Assembly (NCBI GenBank): GCA_903813345.2 | Contig: CAIIXF020000005.1 | Span: 12,899,375 to 12,963,374, forward strand | Origin: Owenia fusiformis | Lineage: Eukaryota; Annelida; Polychaeta; Sabellida; Oweniidae | Direction: 5' to 3' | Length of the DNA stretch: 64,000 nucleotides | Shown: positions 6,262-63,538 of the stretch, in pieces | Position numbering within the stretch: position 1 is the stretch's first letter | Layout of the letters: each line of letters starts with the position of its first letter | Made by a program: the position numbers and the translations under genes | Notes under the pieces: model-generated | Databases searched by the model: none | Told to the model about the DNA's origin: nothing | The model's input: the letters and a program-made list of their open reading frames with translations, nothing else

Positions 6262-7385
6262 GTGAATTTTGATGAAATGGATAAGATTCTTAATAACTTA
6301 GAAGTTGGCGAAGATCAAATAAAACCAATCATAGTGAAATATATGAAAGATAAGTTAATTTTCCCACTGACCCATATTTGCAATTTATCAATGAAAAATG
6401 GAGTTTTCCCAAATAAACTAAAAACGCAAAAGTCACCCCCGTTTATAAGAAACAAGATGAGCATCGGTTTAATAACTATCGACCTATTTCATTACTTCCA
6501 GTCTTTTCTAAGATTCTTGAAAGAGTTATGGCAAACAGAATAGTTGATTTTTGTGAACAACAATATGGATTTAGAAAAAATAGATCAACTTATATGGCAC
6601 TTATAAATTTTCTAGAATCACTTCGTTCCTCACTTATAGATAAAAAATTTAACATAGAGATATTTATAGATCTATCAAAAGCTTTTGACACCGTAAATCA
6701 AGATTCTGTTGGAAAAATTACATTTTATGGAATAAGGGGTACTGCTTATAATTGGTTTCCTTGTTACTTATCAAATCGATCTCAAATTACTGAAAATGAT
6801 GGTTGTGTATCAAACCCTACAGAAATATCGTGTGGTGTACCTCAAGGATCAATTCTTGGACCAATTGTATTTGTAATATATATCAATGACATTGTGAAGG
6901 CAACTACTACTCTTAAACTAACAATTTTTTGCTGATGACACAACTTTACTTGGTTCTGGTAAAGATTTAAAGACATTAGTTCATTCTATCAACAATGACC
7001 TCATAACATTAGATGACTTGCTAAAGGTTAACAAACGTTCAGCTAACATAGACAAAACTAAATTTATGTTATTTTCCTTCCGTAGAATCACTCAGAATGA
7101 ATCCCATCTTCTGAATATAAAGATACGACAAATTAATCTAGAACGAATAAACACAACTAACTTTTTGGGAATTATAATTGATGATAATTTATCATGAGAA
7201 GATCATATCAGACAAGTTTCTCTTAAGATCTCCCAAATACTAGGTATATTATTTAAGGTACATAACAAGTTAAACTTTGAATCTTTAAGATCAATTTATT
7301 ATTCACTAATATATAGTCACTTGAAGTATTGCATTATTATATGGGGAACTGCAATTAAAGACTCATGGATAGAGTTTTTAAACTG
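6262..7385 (+). pseudogene. LINE reverse transcriptase, frameshifted
   Basis: The frame at 6262-6430 gives the fingers region (SMKNGVFPNKLK). Between about 6430 and 6530 the sense moves to another frame with RFNNYRPISLLPVFSKIL. The frame at 6528-6935 contains QQYGFRKNRST, then FIDLSKAFDTV (motif A), then CGVPQGSILGP (motif B). Motif C, FADDTTLLGSG, follows at about 6928 in a third frame, so one frameshift lies just before the catalytic aspartates. The thumb continues to about 7380 with an in-frame TGA near 7196. The motif wording fits the Jockey/CR1 group; I cannot assign the clade. No function is expected. Confidence 0.9.
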
Positions 7386-8450
7386 CAAAAACAGTTTCTG
7401 AGACTTATTTCAAATAGCCTAAGAGAGACACCTTCTGCCCCCCCCCTCCCACCTTTTTAAAAAAAATATAAGCTTCTTGATGTATTTGAGGTATATAAAC
7501 TTAATGCTGCTCTGTTTGTATTTAATTGCATAAAAAGACCAAATGAATTTCCTACAACCACGTATAATGATTACTTTATTGCGAACAGTTTAATCCATTA
7601 TGGAGATACAAGAAATAGATTTGATCTTAGAGCTATAACTTTAAATCAACATTTGGTCAAAATCTATAAAGCGTACAGGTCATATTATCTGGAATGAACT
7701 TCCAAACTCAATTAGAGAAATCAATAGCAGGGATGAATCTAGAACTTATTACAATAAATTACTTTTGAAAAATCATAAATCTTAATTGTATTTATGTATG
7801 TATGTGTGTTAAATGTTATATGTATGTATAGACAATATTTTCCATAGCAAAAGCCATATAGTTGTTACTTTTGCTAATTTTGCTTTACATGTGAAAATGA
7901 GTCCCCCATAACTATATTCATACAGTAATAGTTTTACATTGTATAATATGTTTATGTATATTATAGTGTAAATGTATGTTATATCATAAATATAGAGTAA
8001 AATCAAGATAGTATAATGTAGAAAATGCTGAATGTAATATAATATCTGCATTTATCATTTTTCCATTTTCTTCATTTATTCAAATTTAGTTTTTTATAAC
8101 ATTCAGCAAGAAGTAGTATAGTGAACAAGCCATTATTTCATAACATACTATTGTAATTAAATGCTTTATATATCCAAAAGGAAATTAAGCTGTTAAAATA
8201 TTGTATTAAATGTATGTAATATTACTGCTGAATAAAAAAGAGTCCTGGAATTGGTTGCGTACAAAATAAAGAATTAAAGAACATGTCGGTATTATCCACT
8301 GATAAGTTTAACTTCAAAGGCAAATCGAACACGAAACATATCTCAATTGGAGATGATGTGGTAATAATAAACTAATGTCTCGATTACATGTATTACTGTG
8401 CACATAAGTACTCACACTATTCTAACTCGTTTATTGATGATTGTACTTAC

Positions 8451-8562
8451 TAGAAACTAATGTTCCTATTAGCAGATTAGAACCACTTAAATTTATGGTA
8501 CCAAAATTATCCATATAATTCACATCATTGTTATCATACGCGTAGTCTTCCTCAACAGCCAT
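8451..8562 (-). CDS. First coding exon of an unrecognised gene (37 codons)
   Basis: On the minus strand an ATG at 8562-8560 opens 37 codons that reach a strong donor, TTTCTA|GTAAGT, leaving phase 1. The peptide begins MAVEEDYAYDNNDVNY and ends NLSGSNLLIGTLVS. It is acidic and rich in Asn and Tyr, has one NLS glycosylation sequon, and finishes in a hydrophobic run. That pattern would suit the outer tail of a membrane receptor leading into a first membrane segment, but this is inference. No signal peptide is obvious. No acceptor lies directly upstream of the ATG, so this is probably exon 1 or contains the 5' UTR. The next exon must lie below 8449; none was found, and the LINE and satellites fill that space. 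The protein family is not recognised. Confidence 0.55.
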
Positions 8563-9130
8563 ATAATAGATCAGTAAGTAGAAGAAAAAAGCTTGTTATA
8601 ATGTTCCGACAGACATGCAGTGATTTAATAGTGATTCAAGAAATATCGAGAGATAATCTTGAGATAAAATAACTGAGATACAAACTTTAATTAGTAGACA
8701 CAAAAGAAGAAATTTATCTTTGATATGGAGATTGCTGTTATTAACTCAGATGGACTTTCTAAAATTGTTCATATTATGATGAGTCGTTCAAAAATTTCAT
8801 GAGGAACTCGGCTGTCTCAAAAGTTTGTTTTATAGTCAAGTCTGCCAGGATTTTAAAGATGGTGGCTTTAGAATGATAGATCCTCAAATATTCTCTAAAG
8901 CTAACCTAGAATACAAATATTAACAAAAAACAGTACATGGCAATCCGTGGCTCTAAGTATCATCGGAGTTAAACATATGGAAGAATGTGAATATGATTGT
9001 CTCAAAGGTGTCAGAATTATTTCACCATTATTAACCATTGTTTTTTCTAACAATTATATATGATTGAGTTTGTTTCTATATATTACTCATCATTTTAATG
9101 CTCAAACAACTAAGGAAAAATATAACAAAA
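8563..9130. other. Gene-free stretch upstream of the minus-strand first exon
   Basis: No further coding frame is visible. If 8451-8562 is a true first exon, its promoter should lie here; I see no clear TATA box or initiator that would fix a start site. Confidence 0.3.
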
Positions 9131-39399: not shown

Positions 39400-40740
39400 T
39401 ATGGTTTACAACTCATTTTACCTGGGGAGACTGTCAGGCTAACCGCGTTGACATCACCCCTTTTACCAGTAGTGCAGGCTTGTTGCTGTGCACTGGGGAC
39501 CCTTTACATTAAAACATAGATCTATATTAAAAACACACCTATTTAATTGCAATTATTGACATAGGCATAGTATGATGATTTAAAACTACTTAGACTGTCA
39601 CAGTCTAAGATGTCACCAGGTAGAGTGTTCCATTTAGCTATTGTCCTAGGGAAATAGCTAAATTTGTATGCATCCGTTCTAGCTGATGGTTGTATGAACT
39701 TAGAAGGATGATACAACCTAGTGTTGGTATTGATCTGTTGGCGGAAGTATGGAGGCACGTCGATGGCTGCTAGGTTCTGCTTTCCTTTGTAGAAAAGGAA
39801 AACTCTAGCAGCCTCTCGACGCTCCTTCAGTGGCTCCCACTGTAGGTCTTGAAGAGCTTTGGTGACGCAGCCTGGTTCCCTTGAGTGACATTTGGTTACA
39901 AACCTGGCTGCTCTTCTCTGTACCTGTTCCAACATATCAATATCTTTTTGTCGGTATGGATCCCATGCCGAGCTGGCATACTCTAAATTAGGCCGGACTA
40001 GTGACTTATACGCCTGAGCCTTCACTTTTTCAGGGCATTGATGGAGGTTGCGCCTGAGAAATCCAAGCACCTTATTGGCTTTGGATACAATAGTTTGAAT
40101 ATGTGTAGTCCAGCGTAAGTTATTTGTGATGTCAATTCCTAGGTATGGGATGTGTGTTACCGACTTAAGGTTTTCCCCTAGCATGGTGTAATTGTGCATG
40201 ATAGGGGATTTACCTTTGTGAATATTTAGCACATAGCATTTTGATGGATGGAATTTCATTTGCCATGTTGATGCCCAGGAGACCAGTTTATCAAGATTCT
40301 CCTGTAGTGTTAATGCATCTTGCTTGCTTTCGACTGTCATGAATAAAAGGCTGTCGTCGGCAAAAAGCTTAAGACTGGCTGAGGATGATAGGTTATTGCC
40401 CATATCATTGATATAAACAAGGAAACAGAGTGGTCCAAGAACTGTTCCTTGAGGAACTCCTGATTTTACTGGAGTTTTTGAACTTGATTCACCATCGAGC
40501 ACTACCTGTTGTGATCTTCCCACAAGCCAGGATCTGAACCAGTTCAAGTTATTATTGCGAATTCCATAATAGTCGAGTTTGAGCAAGAGGCGTTCGTGAG
40601 CCACCGTGTCAAACGCTTTGGAAAAGTCTAATACCAACATGTCTGTTTGTTTATTGTTGTCGAGGGCCCGGGCTATATTCTCTATTGTATTGACAAGTTG
40701 TGTTTCACATGAGTGCTTTGACCTGAATCCATGTTGGAAT
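39400..40740 (-). mobile_element. Young 5'-truncated LINE (CR1-like)
   Basis: The minus-strand reverse-transcriptase frame is uninterrupted, with a 3' region of about 140 bp ending near 39400. G+C is clearly higher than in the neighbours. The copy begins abruptly near 40740, where AT-rich sequence resumes, so it is 5'-truncated as usual for LINE insertion. It lies in reverse orientation in the intron between 39050 and 46269. Confidence 0.88.
39543..40739 (-). CDS. LINE reverse transcriptase, 5'-truncated open frame
   Basis: Open for ~399 codons to the stop at 39543; the first Met is at 40640, but the true protein starts before the truncation because the sense is continuous upstream (FQHGFRSKHSCETQLV). 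Motif A is LVLDFSKAFDTVAHERLL, motif B is SGVPQGTVLGP, and motif C is LKLFADDSLLF with both catalytic Asp. Then follow the thumb (LGIDITNNLRW) and the C-terminal region with RRAARFVTKCHSREPG and ending in SFKSSYYAYV. The enzyme copies its own RNA at a nicked chromosomal target. Endonuclease and 5' domains are missing, so the copy cannot move alone. No frameshift or stop within 1.2 kb indicates a recent insertion. Wording fits CR1-like elements; the clade is not certain. Confidence 0.92.
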   Translation of the reverse strand, partial: FQHGFRSKHSCETQLVNTIENIARALDNNKQTDMLVLDFSKAFDTVAHERLLLKLDYYGIRNNNLNWFRSWLVGRSQQVVLDGESSSKTPVKSGVPQGTVLGPLCFLVYINDMGNNLSSSASLKLFADDSLLFMTVESKQDALTLQENLDKLVSWASTWQMKFHPSKCYVLNIHKGKSPIMHNYTMLGENLKSVTHIPYLGIDITNNLRWTTHIQTIVSKANKVLGFLRRNLHQCPEKVKAQAYKSLVRPNLEYASSAWDPYRQKDIDMLEQVQRRAARFVTKCHSREPGCVTKALQDLQWEPLKERREAARVFLFYKGKQNLAAIDVPPYFRQQINTNTRLYHPSKFIQPSARTDAYKFSYFPRTIAKWNTLPGDILDCDSLSSFKSSYYAYVNNCN

Positions 40741-40851
40741 TTTACTAGAATTTAAAACATCGCCGGATCGTTTGGAAAATTCGAATTAAATAACTTAATT
40801 TCCGACAATTCTGATGATGACTTTAACTATGGAATAAAAAGAACATCCTAT

Positions 40852-40980
40852 GATTTACTCGTGATATGGTTTTAATCCACTCATGGATATTGATATCTGC
40901 ACTCTCTCGCTACGCTCGCTCGTGCACATATCATATCCATTCGTGGATAAAAATCATATCACTCGTAAATCATAGGATAT
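40852..40980. mobile_element. Palindrome, copy 2 of the CATCCTATGA family
   Basis: CATCCTATGATTTACTCGTG and its mirror CACTCGTAAATCATAGGATA enclose a centre reading CTCTCGCTACGCTCGCTCGT. Same architecture as 12091-12226. Confidence 0.8.
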
Positions 40981-41112
40981 CCTCTATTTATAAGCTGATT
41001 TATCTATCTACCGTTTGCACGGAGGATAGTTGTCACGTGACCTTCACAGTTGATTTCCCTCGTTCAAAGTGTAAGTTTTTTCGTTTAAGCCATAAAAACG
41101 ATAAATATCATA

Positions 41113-42172
41113 TACAAGGGCCGAGCAATATATTCGCTACTTTTTGCTCTCAAATTGTTAATAATAAAGTATCTTACCTGAAATTTTCCAAAATAATAGA
41201 AAAAACATTTTTCTGTAATATCACCAAATGTGCATTTATTTGGTTACATCCGTAATATTTTACATGGCATTGAATATTGGTTGATAGTGACCACCGGAGC
41301 TGACATTTGTGACAATGTTTCAGAAAACAACTTTTATACAAAATGTCCTTTTTGTTAATTAAGACAGTTACTCCTCATTCCACGCCTCATTCTCAAAATA
41401 GTGTCCATCTGCAGCTATGCATTTTCTACATCGGGAAAGCCAGTCTTGATAGGCCTGTTGCAGTCCGTTTCCATTTCCATATAGGTCTTTTAGGGCCTTA
41501 TGGACGGCCTCCACCACTTCTTCACGGTCACCAAACCTCTGCCCGCGTAGCTCATTCTTCAGTTTGCCGAAAATGTCATCATCAACTGAGTTGCGTCCCA
41601 GTTCAAACCTTTTAAACCAATGTCTAATAAAGTAATTGCTCCCACAAGCTTCCCCATATGTAGTTCTACAGTCCTCCACAGCTTTTTTTAATGTTTGTCC
41701 CTTTTTCACTGATATTTTTATACAAAGCCTCTGTTCTTTTAGATTTGCATTTACCATGCTTGCTTCTTGATGCAACTCAGGAAGCAGAGTCTCCCTTTTG
41801 TGATGCATATGCAGATCAATTGTGACCTCTTTATTGTTTGAAAAGAACATCTATGACATCGCAACCATTGTTCTGAATATTGGATCAATGTCCAGTAAAC
41901 AATGTTTATAAAAATTACCCAAACTGAATGTTTTTGTTATGAGAAATGGGCATATAAAGATATTGTTGCATGTGCAATTGCAGTAAAATTATGGGCAGCT
42001 CCGGTGGCTCATTCCTCCCGTTGCTATGACAACCATAATTTTTTGCCATATTTGGCAATGGGCAAAAGATGCGCAATTCTTCACTCTATGTCTGTACCAA
42101 ATTTCAATGGAAATAAACAAATATAAAAGAAAATAAAGCAAAAATTAGCGAATATATTGCTCGGCCCTTGTA
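41113..42172 (-). mobile_element. Mariner-like element, internally deleted
   Basis: Terminal inverted repeats TACAAGGGCCGAGCAATA + TATTCGCTA (left) and their mirror (right) are about 35 bp long and nearly identical. TA flanks both ends (41111-41112, 42173-42174), the universal Tc1/mariner target. The total length is 1060 bp, against about 1.3 kb for complete mariners. It holds one minus-strand frame, described separately. Confidence 0.92.
41368..41850 (-). CDS. Mariner transposase lacking its catalytic core
   Basis: A 160-aa frame on the minus strand inside the mariner-like element. Residues ~35-92 match the mariner N-terminal helix-turn-helix (EQRLCIKISVKKGQTLK, HWFKRFELGRNSVDDD), which binds the terminal repeats. 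Residues ~93-160 match the mariner C-terminus (LKNELRGQRFGDREEVVEAV, WLSRCRKCIAADGHYFE). The DDE/D catalytic domain that should separate them is missing, with the two parts joined in frame; complete mariner transposases are about 345 aa. The protein could still bind the element's ends but not cut, so it might act as an inhibitor of related elements. That is inference. Start uncertain: Met at 41850 or the later MVNANLKEQR. Confidence 0.85.
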   Translation of the reverse strand: MFFSNNKEVTIDLHMHHKRETLLPELHQEASMVNANLKEQRLCIKISVKKGQTLKKAVEDCRTTYGEACGSNYFIRHWFKRFELGRNSVDDDIFGKLKNELRGQRFGDREEVVEAVHKALKDLYGNGNGLQQAYQDWLSRCRKCIAADGHYFENEAWNEE

Positions 42173-56172: not shown

Positions 56173-57811
56173 GTAAGTTGATAAGGATTGCGCATACTAG
56201 CATTAATAGGGTTGCCGTAAACCGGGGGCCGAAGATCATATAATCACTGTTCCACAACTGGATGACTCTAACTGCAGTTAGCTTCATTCAAGATGGTGGA
56301 CAAAATTCGTTCGTTTCCGATAAATCTCCAATTACAGCCAAACCAAGCTGAATCTTGATCCCAAAAGTTTCGCCATGCAAACTCATAAAGATATTATTGT
56401 AAACAACCACAAATAAAGGCTCACGCACCCGCGATATTAGAGAAATTGAAAGAAAACGGCTTCACTTAGAATGACTCTAACTGAAGTTAGTGATGACGTA
56501 GGAATGAAGCTAACTGAAACGGGGAATGAAGCTAACTCAATGGGATGAATATATGGACGGCCCTGTCTGTTGTTATAAGATATCTAAATGTCATTGACTG
56601 TTGTTATTGGTTGTAGCCATTTGTATTTTGACATGGAGTGAGTTTCTATTCAATCCCATGGCCGGTGATCGTAGAAATTGGACGGAGGGGAGCAGACAAA
56701 TTCTGGTAGAAATGTCAACAAATCTGGAAAATTTACTTTTTCAAGACAAAATTTAGTTTACGATTGAATGGCCAAATGAATAGGCTTACGGTATGGTAAA
56801 ATATTGTAAGTATTCCGGATTAAAGTATATGATGTAAAAGGCGAAATGCCGCAAACGTCCGAAAGTCAATGTTTTGCTAGTCAAGCAAGAATGGTCTACA
56901 CGACCTGTAATTAAAAAACTTGTAAGTGACATTATCGTCACAAAATTAATGTCATTGCTGAGTAATTAAGTTCCCATACGTAATATAAAAAATAATTGAA
57001 GGGGCGGAGGGGGGGGGGCAATATTTCTATTATTCTTCTATTACTATTTTTATTTCTATTACAACTTCACCAAAATTCTTGTATTTCAAAATGAACTCAT
57101 AAAACGTACAATGTAATATGAAGCTGGATTTTACAGCTCTGAAGAATGAAAAATGGGGAATTTTAAGTTATATGACTTCAAGTCTAGAAACATCTCTTGT
57201 CATGTCTGATATACATAAATGCTCCCCGATGCTCAATAAATAAATGACTTATCCATCACAGATAATCGTCACATTTTTTCAAGTAGACTAAATGAAGTAG
57301 GAAAACCGATTGCGTTCCAATCGACTGTGCGACAATATATACAGGATCATGTTCCCCCTGGGACTATTAGACATTAGTCAGTTACTGAACATGTCCCTCC
57401 ATTAATTCACCCGTCCCCTTCTTGGCGGTACCAGGCTAGGCGTATACATGTACTGATAACATGCATACCAGCATACAAATAATTCAACAAAAGGGGTAGG
57501 CTGCATGATACTTCAAGACTTGAGTGACTTCGTTAAGATAAAGTAGCAAATGTAGGCTAATGACGTACTCTTTATTGTTATTTACGGTAGTCTAGTGTAA
57601 AACCAAACTTTCCATAAATTGGACAAATATTGTGCTTTTGTGTTATTCTATCAACAAGCTAAATGATTTTAATTTGAAATATACTTAAATAGTAATTATA
57701 TTTAGTTTATGTAACTGGTTTCATGACCATCAATCATTTATGTATCCGTGTATACGGAGTTGCAGAATGTGAGTGTCATCTCCCGGGTAAAGTAAAGGCA
57801 TATTTTCTGCA

Positions 57812-57906
57812 CTAGACGAAAATAAATCGTGTAATGCCGCTGTCACATCTATCCATCTTCTTCATTATTTCCAGCACTCTTTTCATTACCCCTTCAAGTT
57901 CAGTTT
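57812..57906 (-). CDS. Mini-exon gene, terminal exon with stop
   Basis: On the minus strand GATTTATTGCAG is followed by 95 bp (2 + 30 codons + TAG). It reads TELEGVMKRVLEIMKKMD then RCDSGITRFIFV and stops. The first half is a plausible amphipathic helix (L-x2-V-x3-V-x2-I). The carried G from the previous exon makes GAA (Glu). An AATAAA lies about 240 bp downstream (near 57570), fitting a 3' UTR. The family is not recognised. Confidence 0.6.
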
Positions 57907-58457
57907 CTGCAATAAATCAAATTAAATTACCAACATTTACACGATTGTGCTTCAAATAATCCATTATTATATCTTGATCAATTGTATTAAATGTTATAGG
58001 AGCATTCGCAAACAGCTATTTGTACTACAGGGTTAACGTAATTCGAAACCATGCATTTTACTCATATCTTTTGGCTATACCACAGGAGGATGAACATTAA
58101 CATTGTGACTATCAGTCCGATGGTTATCAAATGTGTTAGAAAATTGAATGATGGACAAATGTGCCAAATATCAGTGAGTAATTTCTTAAAATAAAAAAGA
58201 GGAAAATAGCGACAGCATTTCCATTTTTACCCGTAGATAATTATTTTGTTAAAGACTGATTAAATTAAAATTGTTTAAGAGTACTCAAACAACCAACATG
58301 TCTTAATTAATCGAATTTCACAATTCCCATTGGCAGACTTGGGGGATGAGGCATACGTATGTTAACGAAATGTGAAAGCAGAGGGTGTTGGCCAAATTAT
58401 ATTTTGTTTGAAGGGTGCTTCCCAATTACCCTATTTTTATCAAGTGTCTCTCATTAC

Positions 58458-58502
58458 CTGTAATATCACTTTTGACATCTTCGATTCTCTCTTCGTCAGT
58501 TC
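58458..58502 (-). CDS. Mini-exon gene, 45-bp internal exon (phase 1-1)
   Basis: CTTACAG and ATTACAG|GTAATG bound 45 bp on the minus strand. The peptide TDEERIEDVKSDIT is very acidic. The carried G makes GGA (Gly) at its start and GAA at the junction with the last exon. Very small symmetrical exons are easily skipped, so alternative splicing is possible. Confidence 0.55.
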
Positions 58503-58742
58503 CTGTAAGATAAGTGAATTTATACGTATAAAATTTGAACCAAATTATTATTTGAGTTATCAGATGTTACATTTTTATGGAGTGGTGACCATTTTGAATT
58601 AAACGGGCATTTTAATTAGTTATCGCCCTTACACACAGACGGACGGTCGGCTTCTCTATTTCCCTAAGAACTTCGTTCGGTGGGATAAAAAAAAGTCATT
58701 AAGTACGTAGTTACGGCGTCAAATTATTTAAAGACAACTCAC

Positions 58743-58814
58743 CTTCTGTCTCATCCAGATCCAAAGCAATCTGTTTATCTGCTCGATCGATGGGAGATTG
58801 TGCCTGTTCTTCAA
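58743..58814 (-). CDS. Mini-exon gene, 72-bp internal exon (phase 1-1)
   Basis: TTTTACATAG and GACAGAAG|GTGAGT bound 72 bp on the minus strand in one open frame: EEQAQSPIDRADKQIALD then LDETE. With the two exons downstream it makes an acidic C-terminus (D/E-rich, then a helical tail). Earlier exons are not certain; a short segment ending TTCAAG|GTAAGC (donor at 60151-60152) fits the phase. The three exons agree in phase and strand, and splice sites are all good, so a real transcript is likely, but whether it is a host gene or a gene carried by the 56245-63489 element is open. Confidence 0.55.
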
Positions 58815-59187
58815 CTATGTAAAATATAAATAAAATAAGTATGTCAATTACGAGTATAAAATGACATGAATGAATGCGTATATCTCTTATTCAGAGTCTA
58901 TATCTGTATATTGACGTATGATAAACTACATTTTTGACATTATTTTTATTTTGCACACACATGATACACATTATATATCCCGGGGTATACTGTAGGCCTT
59001 TCGAAGTTGCTGTTTCACAATCAAAGTAAAATAAGCCATTTGACATACTATGAGACATATTTAGTGAAAGAAGAAGCATTCTATATTTTGTCCAATGACC
59101 CACCACGATACAGACTCATAGTCGTCCTTTACTTTACTCCAAGGGGTTTACATTTGACCATTTCGACCCAAAATTACTTGCAAATGG

Positions 59188-60028
59188 ACACGACGTGTTC
59201 TAGTGAAAGAAGAACCCCATTTAGTACCTTTATAAAGCCCGGTATACACCAATGGGGCAAAATCCCACTTGCCCCATCGAGTCCCATCTTGCCCCATCGA
59301 ATCCAAATTTGCCCCATCGAATCCCACAAAGTCCCATGGGACCTTGATGACTTTGCCCCATCGTGCCCCATGGAGTCCCATCAAGCCCCATGGAGTCCCA
59401 TCAAATCCCACCGTGCCCCATTGGTGTATGTCGGGCTTCACACAACACGTCATATGATCGAAAATCCCACGATGCCCCATGGAAAGAATGAACATGTTCA
59501 TTCTCAATGGGACTCCATGGGACTTCGTGGGATTTTGCCCCATCTTGCCCCATCGAGTCCCACCGAGTCCCACGTGGGACTTCATGGGACTTCATGGGAC
59601 CTCATGGGACCTCGTGGGACTCGATGGGGCAAGATGGGGCAAATATGGGGCAAAATCCCAAAAGGTCCCACGCAATGTTAAGTCTATGGAGGTCCCAACT
59701 TGCCCCATTGGTGTATACCGGGCTTTAGGGCCATCACGAGACGTGTTCTAGTGAAAGAAGAACCTCAATTTCGTATATAGCCCTAAAGTCCGGTATACAC
59801 CAATGGGGCAAGTTGGGACCTCCATAGACTTAACATTGCGTGGGACCTCGTGGGACCTTTTGGGATTTTGCCCCATGAAGTCAGTGGGACTCCATGGGAC
59901 TCCGTGGGATTTTGCCCCATCTTGCAAACTATGGACAACCACGAGGCGTGTTCTAGTGATAGAAGTAGACTTGATTACCTATGTTCTATAGAACACAACA
60001 CGAGACGTATTCTTGTGAAAGAAGCAAT
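59188..60028. repeat. GGGAC/GGGGC array in inverted modules
   Basis: Dense TCATGGGAC and CGATGGGGCAA words run in both orientations. Modules start at GGTATACACCAATGGGGCAA (about 59241 and 59796) and end at its mirror (about 59420 and 59715). Between modules GACGTGTTCTAGTGAAAGAA recurs at about 59188, 59738, 59945 and 60003. At 59572-59650 GGG runs fall every ten bases, meeting the usual G-quadruplex pattern. All six frames are nearly stop-free, which produces long but meaningless open frames. Confidence 0.85.
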
Positions 60029-60190
60029 TCACTATAGCTTCATGGTTAATAGGGACTTGTAGTATTCAACTTTGACAAATTTTCATATTTTATGAGATGT
60101 TTCAATGGAGAGGTTTCACTGGAGTTATTAAAACATCTATATAGCTTACCTTGAATACCATGTGCTTGTCTTTTAAAGGGTTCCGATTAG

Positions 60191-60741
60191 TTATCCCGTT
60201 CCCGGACTATGGTCCTGTGAACATCTCAATCTTTTGCCTGTGCGATTACAACATGGGAGAATTTTTTACTGATCTTACACTTCAGATACCTACTTCAATA
60301 GATTCCTTGGTAATTTAGCATTCTTTTCGTGTAGTTGAATCCACAATTGTCTGGGTTTATCGGCAGAACGAAGACATTTTCGTTTTTGATCGCAATATTT
60401 GCGTGTAACATTTCAACCGTCAAATTCCTCCATATTGGTACTTCCGGGCTACATCCGGGACAGCCAAACGGGGGATTCCCCTTTTAAATCCAACCGCCAT
60501 TTTGAAAAGTGATGGAATCTCTCTCGATGAAAAAGAGAAAATGTTCCCGTTCTGCCGATATACCCAGACAATCGGCGGTTCCAATATATTAGAAGTTACA
60601 TCTTGAGTTCTATAATGCATTGAGGTAGGTATCTTAAGTGTAAGGGGCGTAGATAATTCTCCCAAGTTGTAATCGTACCCGGGTAATCGTACAGGCAAAT
60701 GAATGCGATCAGTGCAGGACTATAGTCCGGGAACGGGATAA
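60191..60741. mobile_element. 551-bp foldback with 8-bp duplication CCGATTAG
   Basis: TTATCCCGTTCCCGGACTAT and its mirror ATAGTCCGGGAACGGGATAA start arms of about 180 bp. CCGATTAG is repeated perfectly on both sides (60183-60190, 60742-60749), the size made by hAT and P-type transposases. It lies within the 56245-63489 element, so it is younger than that. Confidence 0.92.
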
Positions 60742-60749
60742 CCGATTAG

Positions 60750-61236
60750 CATCCCGTATAAAAACAATATGGCGGCTCCAGGCGAATCAACTGGATCAGT
60801 CCATTTTTAAGAAATAAGGGGAGTTCTGTAAAATCCAGTTTATTGAAATTGTCTTTGAGATAAAGTAATCCATTTATAATGATTTTGAAAACGTTATCCA
60901 AAGAGTGATTGCGTTCAAATAATACATGTACAACAGCCAATATAAATTCTTGTATTAGAAACCGGTTTGTCTTGCTTTGTTTCATTTGTAGGATATTTCA
61001 TATGCCAAGCTGTGTGCTATTACGTTATGGGGAAATTTAGATGCCAATTTTTCCTTATTATACACAAATAGAAGATCCTTCACCCATAAATGTGGAATTG
61101 ATTTGTCAAAATAAAAATCACCCTTTTATAAATGTGTGACGATCTATAATATACTTATGCTATATAACAGTTAGAGGTGTTGACACAACGACCTCGAACC
61201 TGTGAACCCTTGAGTATTATTCCGGGATCGGGCCTT
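60750..61236. other. Gene-free stretch
   Basis: AT-rich. The minus-strand frame 60746-60985 has no domain and no splice support. Confidence 0.3.
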
Positions 61237-61541
61237 TTATACTAAACGGTGAGCAACACCAGAAACGAGCGTTCGATTTGCTAAACGATATGCGTCACCC
61301 TTTAAGTCCAGTTTCATAGAAGTCGGGTCAGCGATTACTTTGTTTCCCTTTGCTTGTAGTTCTTTGACTTTCACTAACGATACATTGAAATGTCTTGATG
61401 CGTATTTGTGTCTACCACTGGCGGGGTCGATCATATGTTCACGTTTACTAAAATTTTCAGTGATGTGATTGTTCAAACAATGGCTGAGAATTGCGTCAAT
61501 TTCATCATCTTGTCTCGGGCAATAATAGCACATGTATTGAG
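61237..61541 (-). CDS. Terminal exon with CCHH zinc-finger-like motif
   Basis: On the minus strand TTATCAATTCCAG leads to 100 codons and TAA (phase 1 in). It starts QYMCYYCPRQDDEIDAIL then SHCLNNHITENFSKREHM; C-Y-Y-C, twelve residues, then H-x4-H is a classic zinc-binding spacing. It continues IDPASGRHKYASRHFNVS then LVKVKELQAKGNKVIADP and ends VAHRLV. The Cys-to-His spacing suggests DNA, RNA or protein binding; no larger family is recognised. The frame also stays open upstream of the acceptor to a Met at 61635 (132 aa), so an unspliced single-exon version is possible. It lies inside the 56245-63489 element, on the same strand as the mini-exon gene. Because it ends in its own stop, it is probably a separate gene. 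Confidence 0.55.
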
Positions 61542-61645
61542 CTGGAATTGATAAGTAATATACATTGACCAAAAAGGTTTTTACAACATTATATTCTGCA
61601 TGACAATACTCGTATGCGCAATCATGGGCTTTCAATAGACAAACT

Positions 61646-61789
61646 TTGACCGATGGTAACCAGGTAACATAATGTAAAACCTAGTTCCTCATTGAAATAT
61701 CCATGGTGTATGCACTGTTGACCGATGGTAACCAGGTAAAATAATGTAAAACCTAGTTCCTCATTGAAATATCCATGGTGTATGCACTG
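61646..61789. repeat. 72-bp tandem duplication
   Basis: TTGACCGATGGTAACCAGGT begins a unit at 61646 and again at 61718; the two differ at about one base. The second unit is cut by the foldback element starting at 61785. Confidence 0.93.
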
Positions 61790-62321
61790 GTGATCCACTC
61801 GATTACGCTGGTTACCAAAACGAACCGTTTTGGTAACAAAATGTCGGAACGTCGAAGGCACGATTTTTCTTTTTTCCTTATTTCACGCGTTGTAGGCAGA
61901 ATCTCCACGACGTTTTTTCTCACAACGTACATCAGTATCATATGTTCTAGAAAATTTACATGTTTGCGAAAAAATAGCTCAGAGAAAAACAGAATCGTCG
62001 ATTTACTTCCTCACTTAAGTTACATAAACGGTTTTTCGAAAAACAGTTAAGATCTGCACTTTTAAGCCAAACCGTTTATGTAACTTAAGTGAGGAAGTAA
62101 ATCGACGATTCTGTTGTCTTCTGGACTATTTGTTCGCAAATATGTACACTTTCTTAAACATATGATACTGATACACGTTTGTGTTAAAAAATGTCGTGGG
62201 AATTCTGCCTACAACGTGTAAAATAAGGAAACGAGAAAAATCGTACCTTCCGGATGTTCCGACATTTTGTTACCAAAACGAACCGTTTTTGTAACCAGCG
62301 TAATCGAGTGGATCACCAGTG
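61785..62321. mobile_element. 537-bp foldback with CACTG ends and GTATG duplication
   Basis: CACTGGTGATCCACTCGATT and its mirror begin arms of about 240 bp that meet near 62050 and share GGTTACCAAAACGAACCGTT and CGTCGATTTACTTCCTCACT. GTATG lies on both sides (61780-61784, 62322-62326), a perfect 5-bp duplication. Same CACTG start and duplication length as the larger element that contains it, but the rest of the ends differ. Confidence 0.9.
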
Positions 62322-62326
62322 GTATG

Positions 62327-63200
62327 GCTTATAGAAGAAAATCAAAACGAACCTGCCATTTCAGTTTAGTTCAGTTTCCCGTCACGACTCACTACTCATA
62401 CTAATACCAACTGTAGTGGTCCAGTTAGATTTACATCCTAGGATATATCCGTGTCTTAACTTATTAGTAGCTGTTTATCTCGTATTATCCATTGTGTGAT
62501 CCATTGCCAGTGTGATCTGTAGTATTCTTAACTACTGTACTATCCCTTGGAATGCACAGCCTGTGGGGGAACGAGTGCGGTTAATGTTTTCTTTAACCCT
62601 GACATGTACGCACCAACTACTTAATATTTACACAGAACAATTAACCACCAGTATCATGGGAAGGCATCATCTGTGGTCACGTGGTTACATAACAAGACAA
62701 AGCCCAGTGGGTATGACAAAACACAGTCTCTCACAAATATCCTAATTAATTAAGGAAATGTGTTCGAAGTTTAAAAAAGGGAGAATAAGAAGGTGAATTC
62801 TGTCATAGGCAATAATTTAGTAAACCGTATATTATTTTGATAATGCATTGAACAAATAAAAATGAACATTGCCTTTAACTGCATGTCTTCAATATTCAGG
62901 TTGTTACATCATTGTATACAATATTGTTGCTTCACGATAAAAGAAACCCTTTTTATCCATCATTCGCTTACAATTTAGAATGATAATATTCTCCGGTGCT
63001 ATTCGAATCGGGGGGGGGGGGTGCTTTTTGATAGTTTTGTTTAGAAAATCGTGCGAAAAGTCCTCAGAGTGGTGAAAACCTGCGGGAATTTGAAATAATT
63101 TCTGGCCAGGGAGGGGGAAACTACCGAACCTCCAGCTTCCCCTGGTTACGGAACTGCTTATTGGTAATTTGTATAGCCCATTATAAATCTCCATTCAGTT
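62327..63200. other. Gene-free stretch
   Basis: No supported exon. The 77-codon frame at 62512-62745 has no domain. 63005-63160 is a decayed MITE related to 29006-29175 (poly-G, GGCCAGGGAGGGGG, CCCTGGTTACGG). Confidence 0.4.
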
Positions 63201-63538
63201 AGAGTCATCAATGGTGAAATCTATGTTGGAGTTAGCTTCATTATCAACCTCAGTTAGAGTCATTCTAAGTGAAGCCGTTTTCTTTCAATTTCTCTAATAT
63301 CGCGGGTGCTTGAGCCTTTATTTGTGGTTGTTTACAATTATATCTTTATTAGTTTGCATGGCGAAATTTTTGGGATCAAGATTCAGCTTGGTTTGGCTGT
63401 AATTGGAGATTTATCGAAAACGAACGAATTTTATCCACCATCTTGAATGAAGCTAACTGCAGTTAGAGTCATCCAGTTGTGGAACAGTGATAATGGTTTT
63501 GAAAAAATATCATTTATATCCATGGGTAGATATATAAG

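Follow-up and report, generated by a model that had tools for sequence, protein, structure and literature searches.

The 64-kb stretch of the Owenia fusiformis genome analysed here (contig CAIIXF020000005.1, positions 12,899,375 to 12,963,374 of the forward strand; hereafter the window) holds a mobile DNA element with CACTG ends. It is 7.2 kb long, both borders are exact at 56245 and 63489, with ATAAT outside each, and between its inverted ends lies a spliced minus-strand gene that opens with a CCHH finger exon. We consider it likely that the window element is a nonautonomous member, shortened by an internal deletion, of a cut-and-paste lineage whose complete form has its own gene, reaching from the CCHH finger to a nuclease.

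Ends and copies of the element

The inverted match between the two arms spans 257 nt at 95.7% identity with the duplicated bases included, giving arms of 251–252 bp. An earlier note, made from the letters of the window alone, had proposed one transposon bounded by CACTG, with a perfect ATAAT on both outer sides, and the exact borders and the further copies bear this out; it was also right about the inverted ends, although its length of ~230 bp was too short. Exact ATGAMKCTAACT sites occur ten times in the 64 kb, five at each end of the element and none elsewhere. With up to one mismatch the window has 12 sites, whereas 100 shuffles gave 1.64 on average and never more than 6. These sites may be binding sites, possibly for the CCHH finger.

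The left end then served as query against the window's own assembly (498 Mb, 525 contigs). At least 40 places carry it: 40 of the 614 candidates were scored, the window's own included, and all matched at 97–100% identity. The window copy was then compared with 19 further copies of this family (family 1). Three of the 20 (L026–L028) were read with one flank only and were not scored for duplications; hence 17 were readable, and 16 of these have matching duplications (13 of 5 bp, three of 6 bp). In the remaining one, L017, the first base is mutated and 2 bp match. Because of these target duplications it follows, together with established knowledge, that transposition is of the cut-and-paste type with a 5-bp stagger. 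Left and right ends are consistently distinguishable by sequence across the copies.

The copies fall into two subfamilies, whose common sequence amounts to ~677 bp at the left side and ~880 bp at the right. Subfamily A (8 of the 20 copies) is more or less colinear with the window, and subfamily B (12 of the 20) has a different, exon-less middle of at least ~1.6 kb with tandem duplications. The copies share left and right segments and their internal cut points differ, the pattern of nonautonomous internal-deletion derivatives: the same ends, colinearity with longer copies, and an interior shortened at varied points.

By eye, no transposase-like frame was found among the frames of at least 100 amino acids (aa) in the copies; a six-frame profile scan covered the window copy. 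Pfam scans of the frames of the window element gave nothing above the curated cut-off, and the statement of the earlier note that no known transposase domain is visible therefore holds for these scans. The longest frames among the copies are low-complexity repeats in L014_15 (C3:2357575-2368751), where element positions 6300–9000 consist of ~2.7 kb of degenerate tandem repeats with spurious frames of up to 821 aa. Copy L011 has two right ends at 6713–8172, each followed by TCAGTGAAAACA; a ~1.2-kb tandem duplication took in the right end and its flank.

The spliced gene and its truncation

Four minus-strand exons with GT/AG junctions, all in phase 1, give an open reading of 148 aa (Table 1). 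The three phase-compatible mini-exons of the earlier note are present; its CCHH exon, taken as terminal, is in fact the first, and the last one is truncated. Homology to the longer copies L014_15 and L016 stops at 57842, and homology to the 3.7-kb copies L013 and L027 starts at 57841, which places the junction of an internal deletion inside exon 4. This deletion cuts the gene, and 'autonomous', one of the options considered earlier, does not fit the window copy.

The splice sites and exons 2–4 are preserved in the window, L011 and L019, while L014_15 and L016 still have exons 2 and 3 along with the initial part of exon 4. The window and L011 have a complete, open exon 1; in L014_15 it is broken, and L016, L019 and L026 have part of it. 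The length of exon 4 varies among copies: it ends at the junction in the window, L011 and L019, continues beyond that junction as CDDFVSVLQAIVAGKLDTNICLHLLLDIGQCLKKF in the 11.2-kb copy L014_15 (with a frameshift upstream in the exon), and runs to a different breakpoint in L016. Judged from these alignments, the exon-4 ends look like nested internal deletions of a longer sequence.

The 148-aa conceptual protein gave 28 matches in the genome (73 candidates scored). All 14 matches at 78% or above lie in family-1 copies, and the 14 at 25–32% lie outside family 1. At that high identity the window exons were found in element copies only. The CCHH exon also matched an 838-aa frame in the genome search; we take this to be a BCL11-like host gene and rejected it as a gene of the element.

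Table 1. Positions of the element and of its parts within the window
Feature	Positions	Strand	Details
Left target-site duplication	56240..56244	.	ATAAT
Left terminal inverted repeat	56245..56496	+	L-type end; begins CACTGTTCCACAACTGG
Left-end subterminal ATGAMKCTAACT sites (n=5)	56262..56537		starts 56262, 56276, 56471, 56504, 56526
Exon 4 remnant	57812..57906	-	ETELEGVMKRVLEIMKKMDRCD... then stop
Internal-deletion junction within exon 4	57841..57842		from comparison with longer and 3.7-kb copies
Exon 3	58458..58502	-	45 nt
Exon 2	58743..58814	-	72 nt
Nested palindromic miniature inverted-repeat transposable element (MITE)	60191..60741	.	TTATCCCGTTCCCGG ends; 8-bp flanking CCGATTAG (by eye)
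Exon 1	61299..61533	-	CCHH finger exon; in-frame ATG (MCYYCPRQDDEIDAILSHCLNNH...)
Nested near-perfect palindrome	61785..62321	.	CACTGGTGATCC ends; GTATG duplication on both sides
Right-end subterminal ATGAMKCTAACT sites (n=5)	63197..63472		starts 63197, 63230, 63252, 63447, 63461
Right terminal inverted repeat	63238..63489	-	R-type end
Right target-site duplication	63490..63494	.	ATAAT

A probable longer gene on C11

The extended exon-4 peptide of L014, used unchanged, matches C11:19854551-19854682 at 75% identity (E 1.5e-15). On one strand of C11 the order is CCHH exon, exon-4 match and a frame of 1221 aa, the last lying 3.8 kb downstream of the CCHH exon; 2679 bases of this frame were read. 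All ten candidates for the extended peptide matched, namely five family-1 copies, C11, and four loci where the match (52–57%) lies just downstream of family-3-like CCHH exons (family 3 is described below). In the window, L011 and L019 the match is weak (E 0.28). Because the longer sister exon 4 matches C11 between the CCHH exon and the nuclease frame, the window exons look, as far as their sequence can tell, like the 5' remnant of a gene that belongs to the lineage itself and not like captured cargo. We conclude that the lineage probably has its own CCHH-nuclease gene.

The nuclease character of the C11 frame was approached with a query modelled on uncharacterised YqaJ-type proteins of marine invertebrates. 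It gave 76 matches in the genome (102 candidates scored; best 53%), the C11 frame among them; the genome search with exon 4 was independent of this query. PHROGs and NCBIfam were applied to the C11 frame only. Residues 243–394 match the NCBIfam lambda-exonuclease family TIGR03033 (E 2.3e-4 on a 256-aa piece, 1.4e-3 on an 892-aa piece), and residues 243–467 also match places marked by PF09588 YqaJ. PHROGs gave weak matches, the best to an HNH endonuclease family at residues 606–700 (E 0.0028).

When 68 CCHH places were set against 78 domain places, one same-strand pair was found within 5 kb, that on C11, where 0.027 would be expected under uniform placement. We did not treat as links two further CCHH/domain pairs, one 39.7 kb apart on the same strand and one with opposite strands at 6.4 kb. 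By eye, none of 40 places marked by PF09588 coincides with a CCHH or an end place; the link came via the C11 frame and the exon-4 matches. The nuclease frame itself has 24 matches in the genome, and its two nearest long relatives, at C11:10.096 Mb (1438 aa) and C5:4.848 Mb (1467 aa), are YqaJ-positive. YqaJ domains also occur in single open frames of 2362–2378 aa (C331:13974, C486:31968, C3:16789085), another nuclease-bearing repeat family.

Neither the 148-aa protein nor the C11 frame found a significant match in PDB sequence searches. Viral contigs, scanned with the CCHH alignment and the C11 frame as well as with the conceptual protein and the end sequence, yielded no relatives, and the window has no match in Rfam at gathering thresholds.

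Related first exons in other CACTG families

We inspected seven of the 14 distant matches of the 148-aa protein. Three belong to elements with CACTGGTGATCC ends (family 2) and four to elements starting CACTGGGGATGAACTGG (family 3). The family-2 copy on C1 was read to both ends; it is 6077 bp long, is flanked by the duplication AATTA and has its CCHH exon ~400 bp inside the end. Two family-3 copies, of 2162 and 2171 bp, were read to the far end and have 248-bp arms and the duplications CAGAT and CTTAA, with the CCHH exon ~370 bp inside the end. All three copies of families 2 and 3 read to both ends thus have 5-bp duplications. In the window the CCHH exon lies ~2 kb inside the end, a nested element of 537 bp counted in. 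The tips read CACTG-N7-ACTGG in families 1 and 3 and CACTG-N7-GCTCG in family 2.

The nested element near the right end of the window copy is related to one of these families: the first 59 bp of the palindrome match the family-2 end at 95%, and we read it as a MITE inserted in a member of the first family. Its CACTG end adjoins a 72-bp tandem duplication (61646–61789, units ending GTATGCACTG), which L011 also has. The other nested MITE is not present in L011, which provides an empty site. Positions 59233–59925 are dense in direct and inverted repeats of the TGGGACTTCA / TTGCCCCATCG type with ends TAAAGCCCGGTATACACC, and suggest a further nested palindromic element together with a fragment. Outside the element, the window holds a reverse-transcriptase-like frame of 402 aa at 39543–40751 (wider region 39543–41850) and a frame of 160 aa at 41368–41850 that looks mariner-like by eye.

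Discussion

Our findings suggest the following model. The gene of the lineage would start inside one end with the CCHH finger exon, pass through small phase-1 exons and, in its complete form, extend into a long frame whose nuclease domain is of the lambda-exonuclease (YqaJ) type; in the window copy an internal deletion would have severed it inside exon 4. The C11 locus may be a mobile member of the lineage or derived from one, and the encoded proteins would act in trans on the ends. A DDE-type or other strand-transfer enzyme might be encoded in the C-terminal part of the gene, beyond the stretch read, or by a second gene.

Several observations weigh against this model. In the stretch read, no element ends were seen at the C11 gene, its exon 1 is ~31% identical to that of the window, and C11 is the sole nuclease-type locus with a detectable CCHH exon close upstream: the 1438-aa and 1467-aa relatives lack a CCHH match out to 45 kb. 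These relatives could have diverged first exons, or could be genes outside the transposon. The match to TIGR03033 scores 21.3 bits, far under the curated cut-off of 68.05, and nothing significant came from Pfam for the C11 frame. No strand-transfer domain was found in that frame, its other notable profile match being the weak one to the PHROG HNH family. Compared pairwise with the domain of the YqaJ-type query, the extended exon 4 was equalled by 478 of 5000 shuffles, which is not significant. The nuclease region was also modelled with AlphaFold from its single sequence; the quality (predicted local distance difference test score, pLDDT, 38) was too low for a search.

A more far-reaching version, which we put forward only tentatively and regard as rather unlikely, is that the elements represent a hitherto undescribed lineage, or superfamily, of DNA transposons in animals, with a spliced gene of CCHH and lambda-exonuclease type and either a new C-terminal strand-transfer domain or a nuclease that takes part directly in mobilisation. 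Among the open-licence papers listed in PubMed Central (PMC), which do not cover Repbase, we found no description of such an element under its ends, its duplication length, YqaJ or C2H2.

The window exons might instead have been acquired by capture of the Pack type, in which a nonautonomous CACTG element took up the 5' exons of a host gene for a CCHH finger and a nuclease and then spread. This would agree with the exon-less middle of the 12 copies of subfamily B, with the small number of nuclease-frame relatives, with C11 being the one among them that has a CCHH exon nearby, and with no ends having been seen there. However, three families with different ends carry a strongly diverged first exon of the same kind inside an end, and at the four further loci exon 4 again follows a CCHH exon; the same 5' exons would have to have been captured independently several times. 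A captured gene should have a close host parent outside the elements. There exon 1 is at most ~32% identical, but exon 4 reaches 75% on C11, a locus that may itself belong to a mobile member. We think capture unlikely. The earlier idea of cargo or host-derived genes is likewise disfavoured, since exons at 78% or above occur only in element copies, diverged first exons recur in two more CACTG families, and the 75% relative of exon 4 has a CCHH exon on one side and a lambda-exonuclease-like frame on the other.

An equally doubtful alternative is that the element belongs to the 5-bp group of hAT elements and is moved by a hAT transposase encoded elsewhere in the genome. According to PMC12730594, hAT groups with 5-bp and with 6-bp duplications exist. 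hAT dimerisation domains are common in this genome, with 137 matches (150 of 182 candidates scored). By eye, however, no listed hAT place lies inside the examined copies or beside a CCHH exon, the nearest being ~9 kb outside L025, and the six frames of the window element, itself internally deleted, contain no hAT domain.

A Transib or RAG-like element that has lost a RAG1-type transposase, a link also raised by the earlier note, has the CAC-starting ends and the 5-bp duplications in its favour. It appears very improbable: the RAG1 profile gave no match in the genome (three candidates scored; the controls were silent too), Pfam gave no RAG1 or RAG2 match, and the ends of all three families read agree with the published RAG-like consensus through CACT and differ from it at position 5. 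Finally, two independent short MITEs flanking unrelated host exons, which the earlier note had held against its own proposal, would suit the MITE-like size of a single end (~250 bp) but can practically be dismissed, as in 16 of the 17 readable copies a single duplication encloses the entire unit, left and right ends consistently differ, and the interiors are common to copies.

Taken together, the evidence points to an internally deleted copy of a lineage that probably has its own CCHH-nuclease gene. Such a lineage would tie a family of large genes with a nuclease, whose role is unclear, to mobile DNA with defined ends, which would make their function testable. With ends, binding-site-like repeats and a candidate gene in hand, it becomes possible to ask which protein moves the element. 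Walking through the exons of sister copies with different breakpoints also offers a way to separate an element's own truncated gene from captured cargo.

Comparison with known systems

RAG-like and Transib elements have 5-bp duplications (PMC7204232); our elements share the CAC start, and all 16 matching duplications are of at least 5 bp. In contrast, the consensus of protostome RAG-like terminal inverted repeats is CACTWMCAAACKTYKBB (PMC7204232), whereas the tips here are CACTGT, CACTGG and CACTGG and do not follow it, and by profile the gene is unrelated, with the RAG1 search and its controls as reported above.

ISL2EU elements, DNA transposons of the PHIS superfamily, have in most cases a gene for a YqaJ exonuclease domain (PMC4482050). 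The lambda-exonuclease-like frame found here may be a likeness; it stands beside related exons on C11 and not inside an element with its ends read. ISL2EU elements have AT dinucleotide duplications, and those found here are of 5 bp and varied. They also have a separate transposase frame with DDE, HTH and THAP domains, whereas here the ends are CACTG, the nuclease frame lies behind CCHH and exon-4 sequences, and we saw no DDE frame. Membership in the RAG-like group and in ISL2EU each fails on a tested feature. With the hAT elements of the 5-bp group the window element shares the duplication length, and it differs in its six frames as described above.

The CMCT group comprises EnSpm/CACTA, Mirage, Chapaev, Transib, Plavaka and others (PMC12730594). 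It is characterised by a DDE transposase having C(2)C and H(3-4)H motifs. The duplications of CMC elements are elsewhere given as 2–4 bp (PMC4482050). Pfam scans of the window element revealed no transposase of this group, and no search with CMCT-specific profiles was made. Most members of the group have CA...TG termini and duplications of 2–5 bp (PMC12730594), and the elements described here have such termini and a duplication size within this range.

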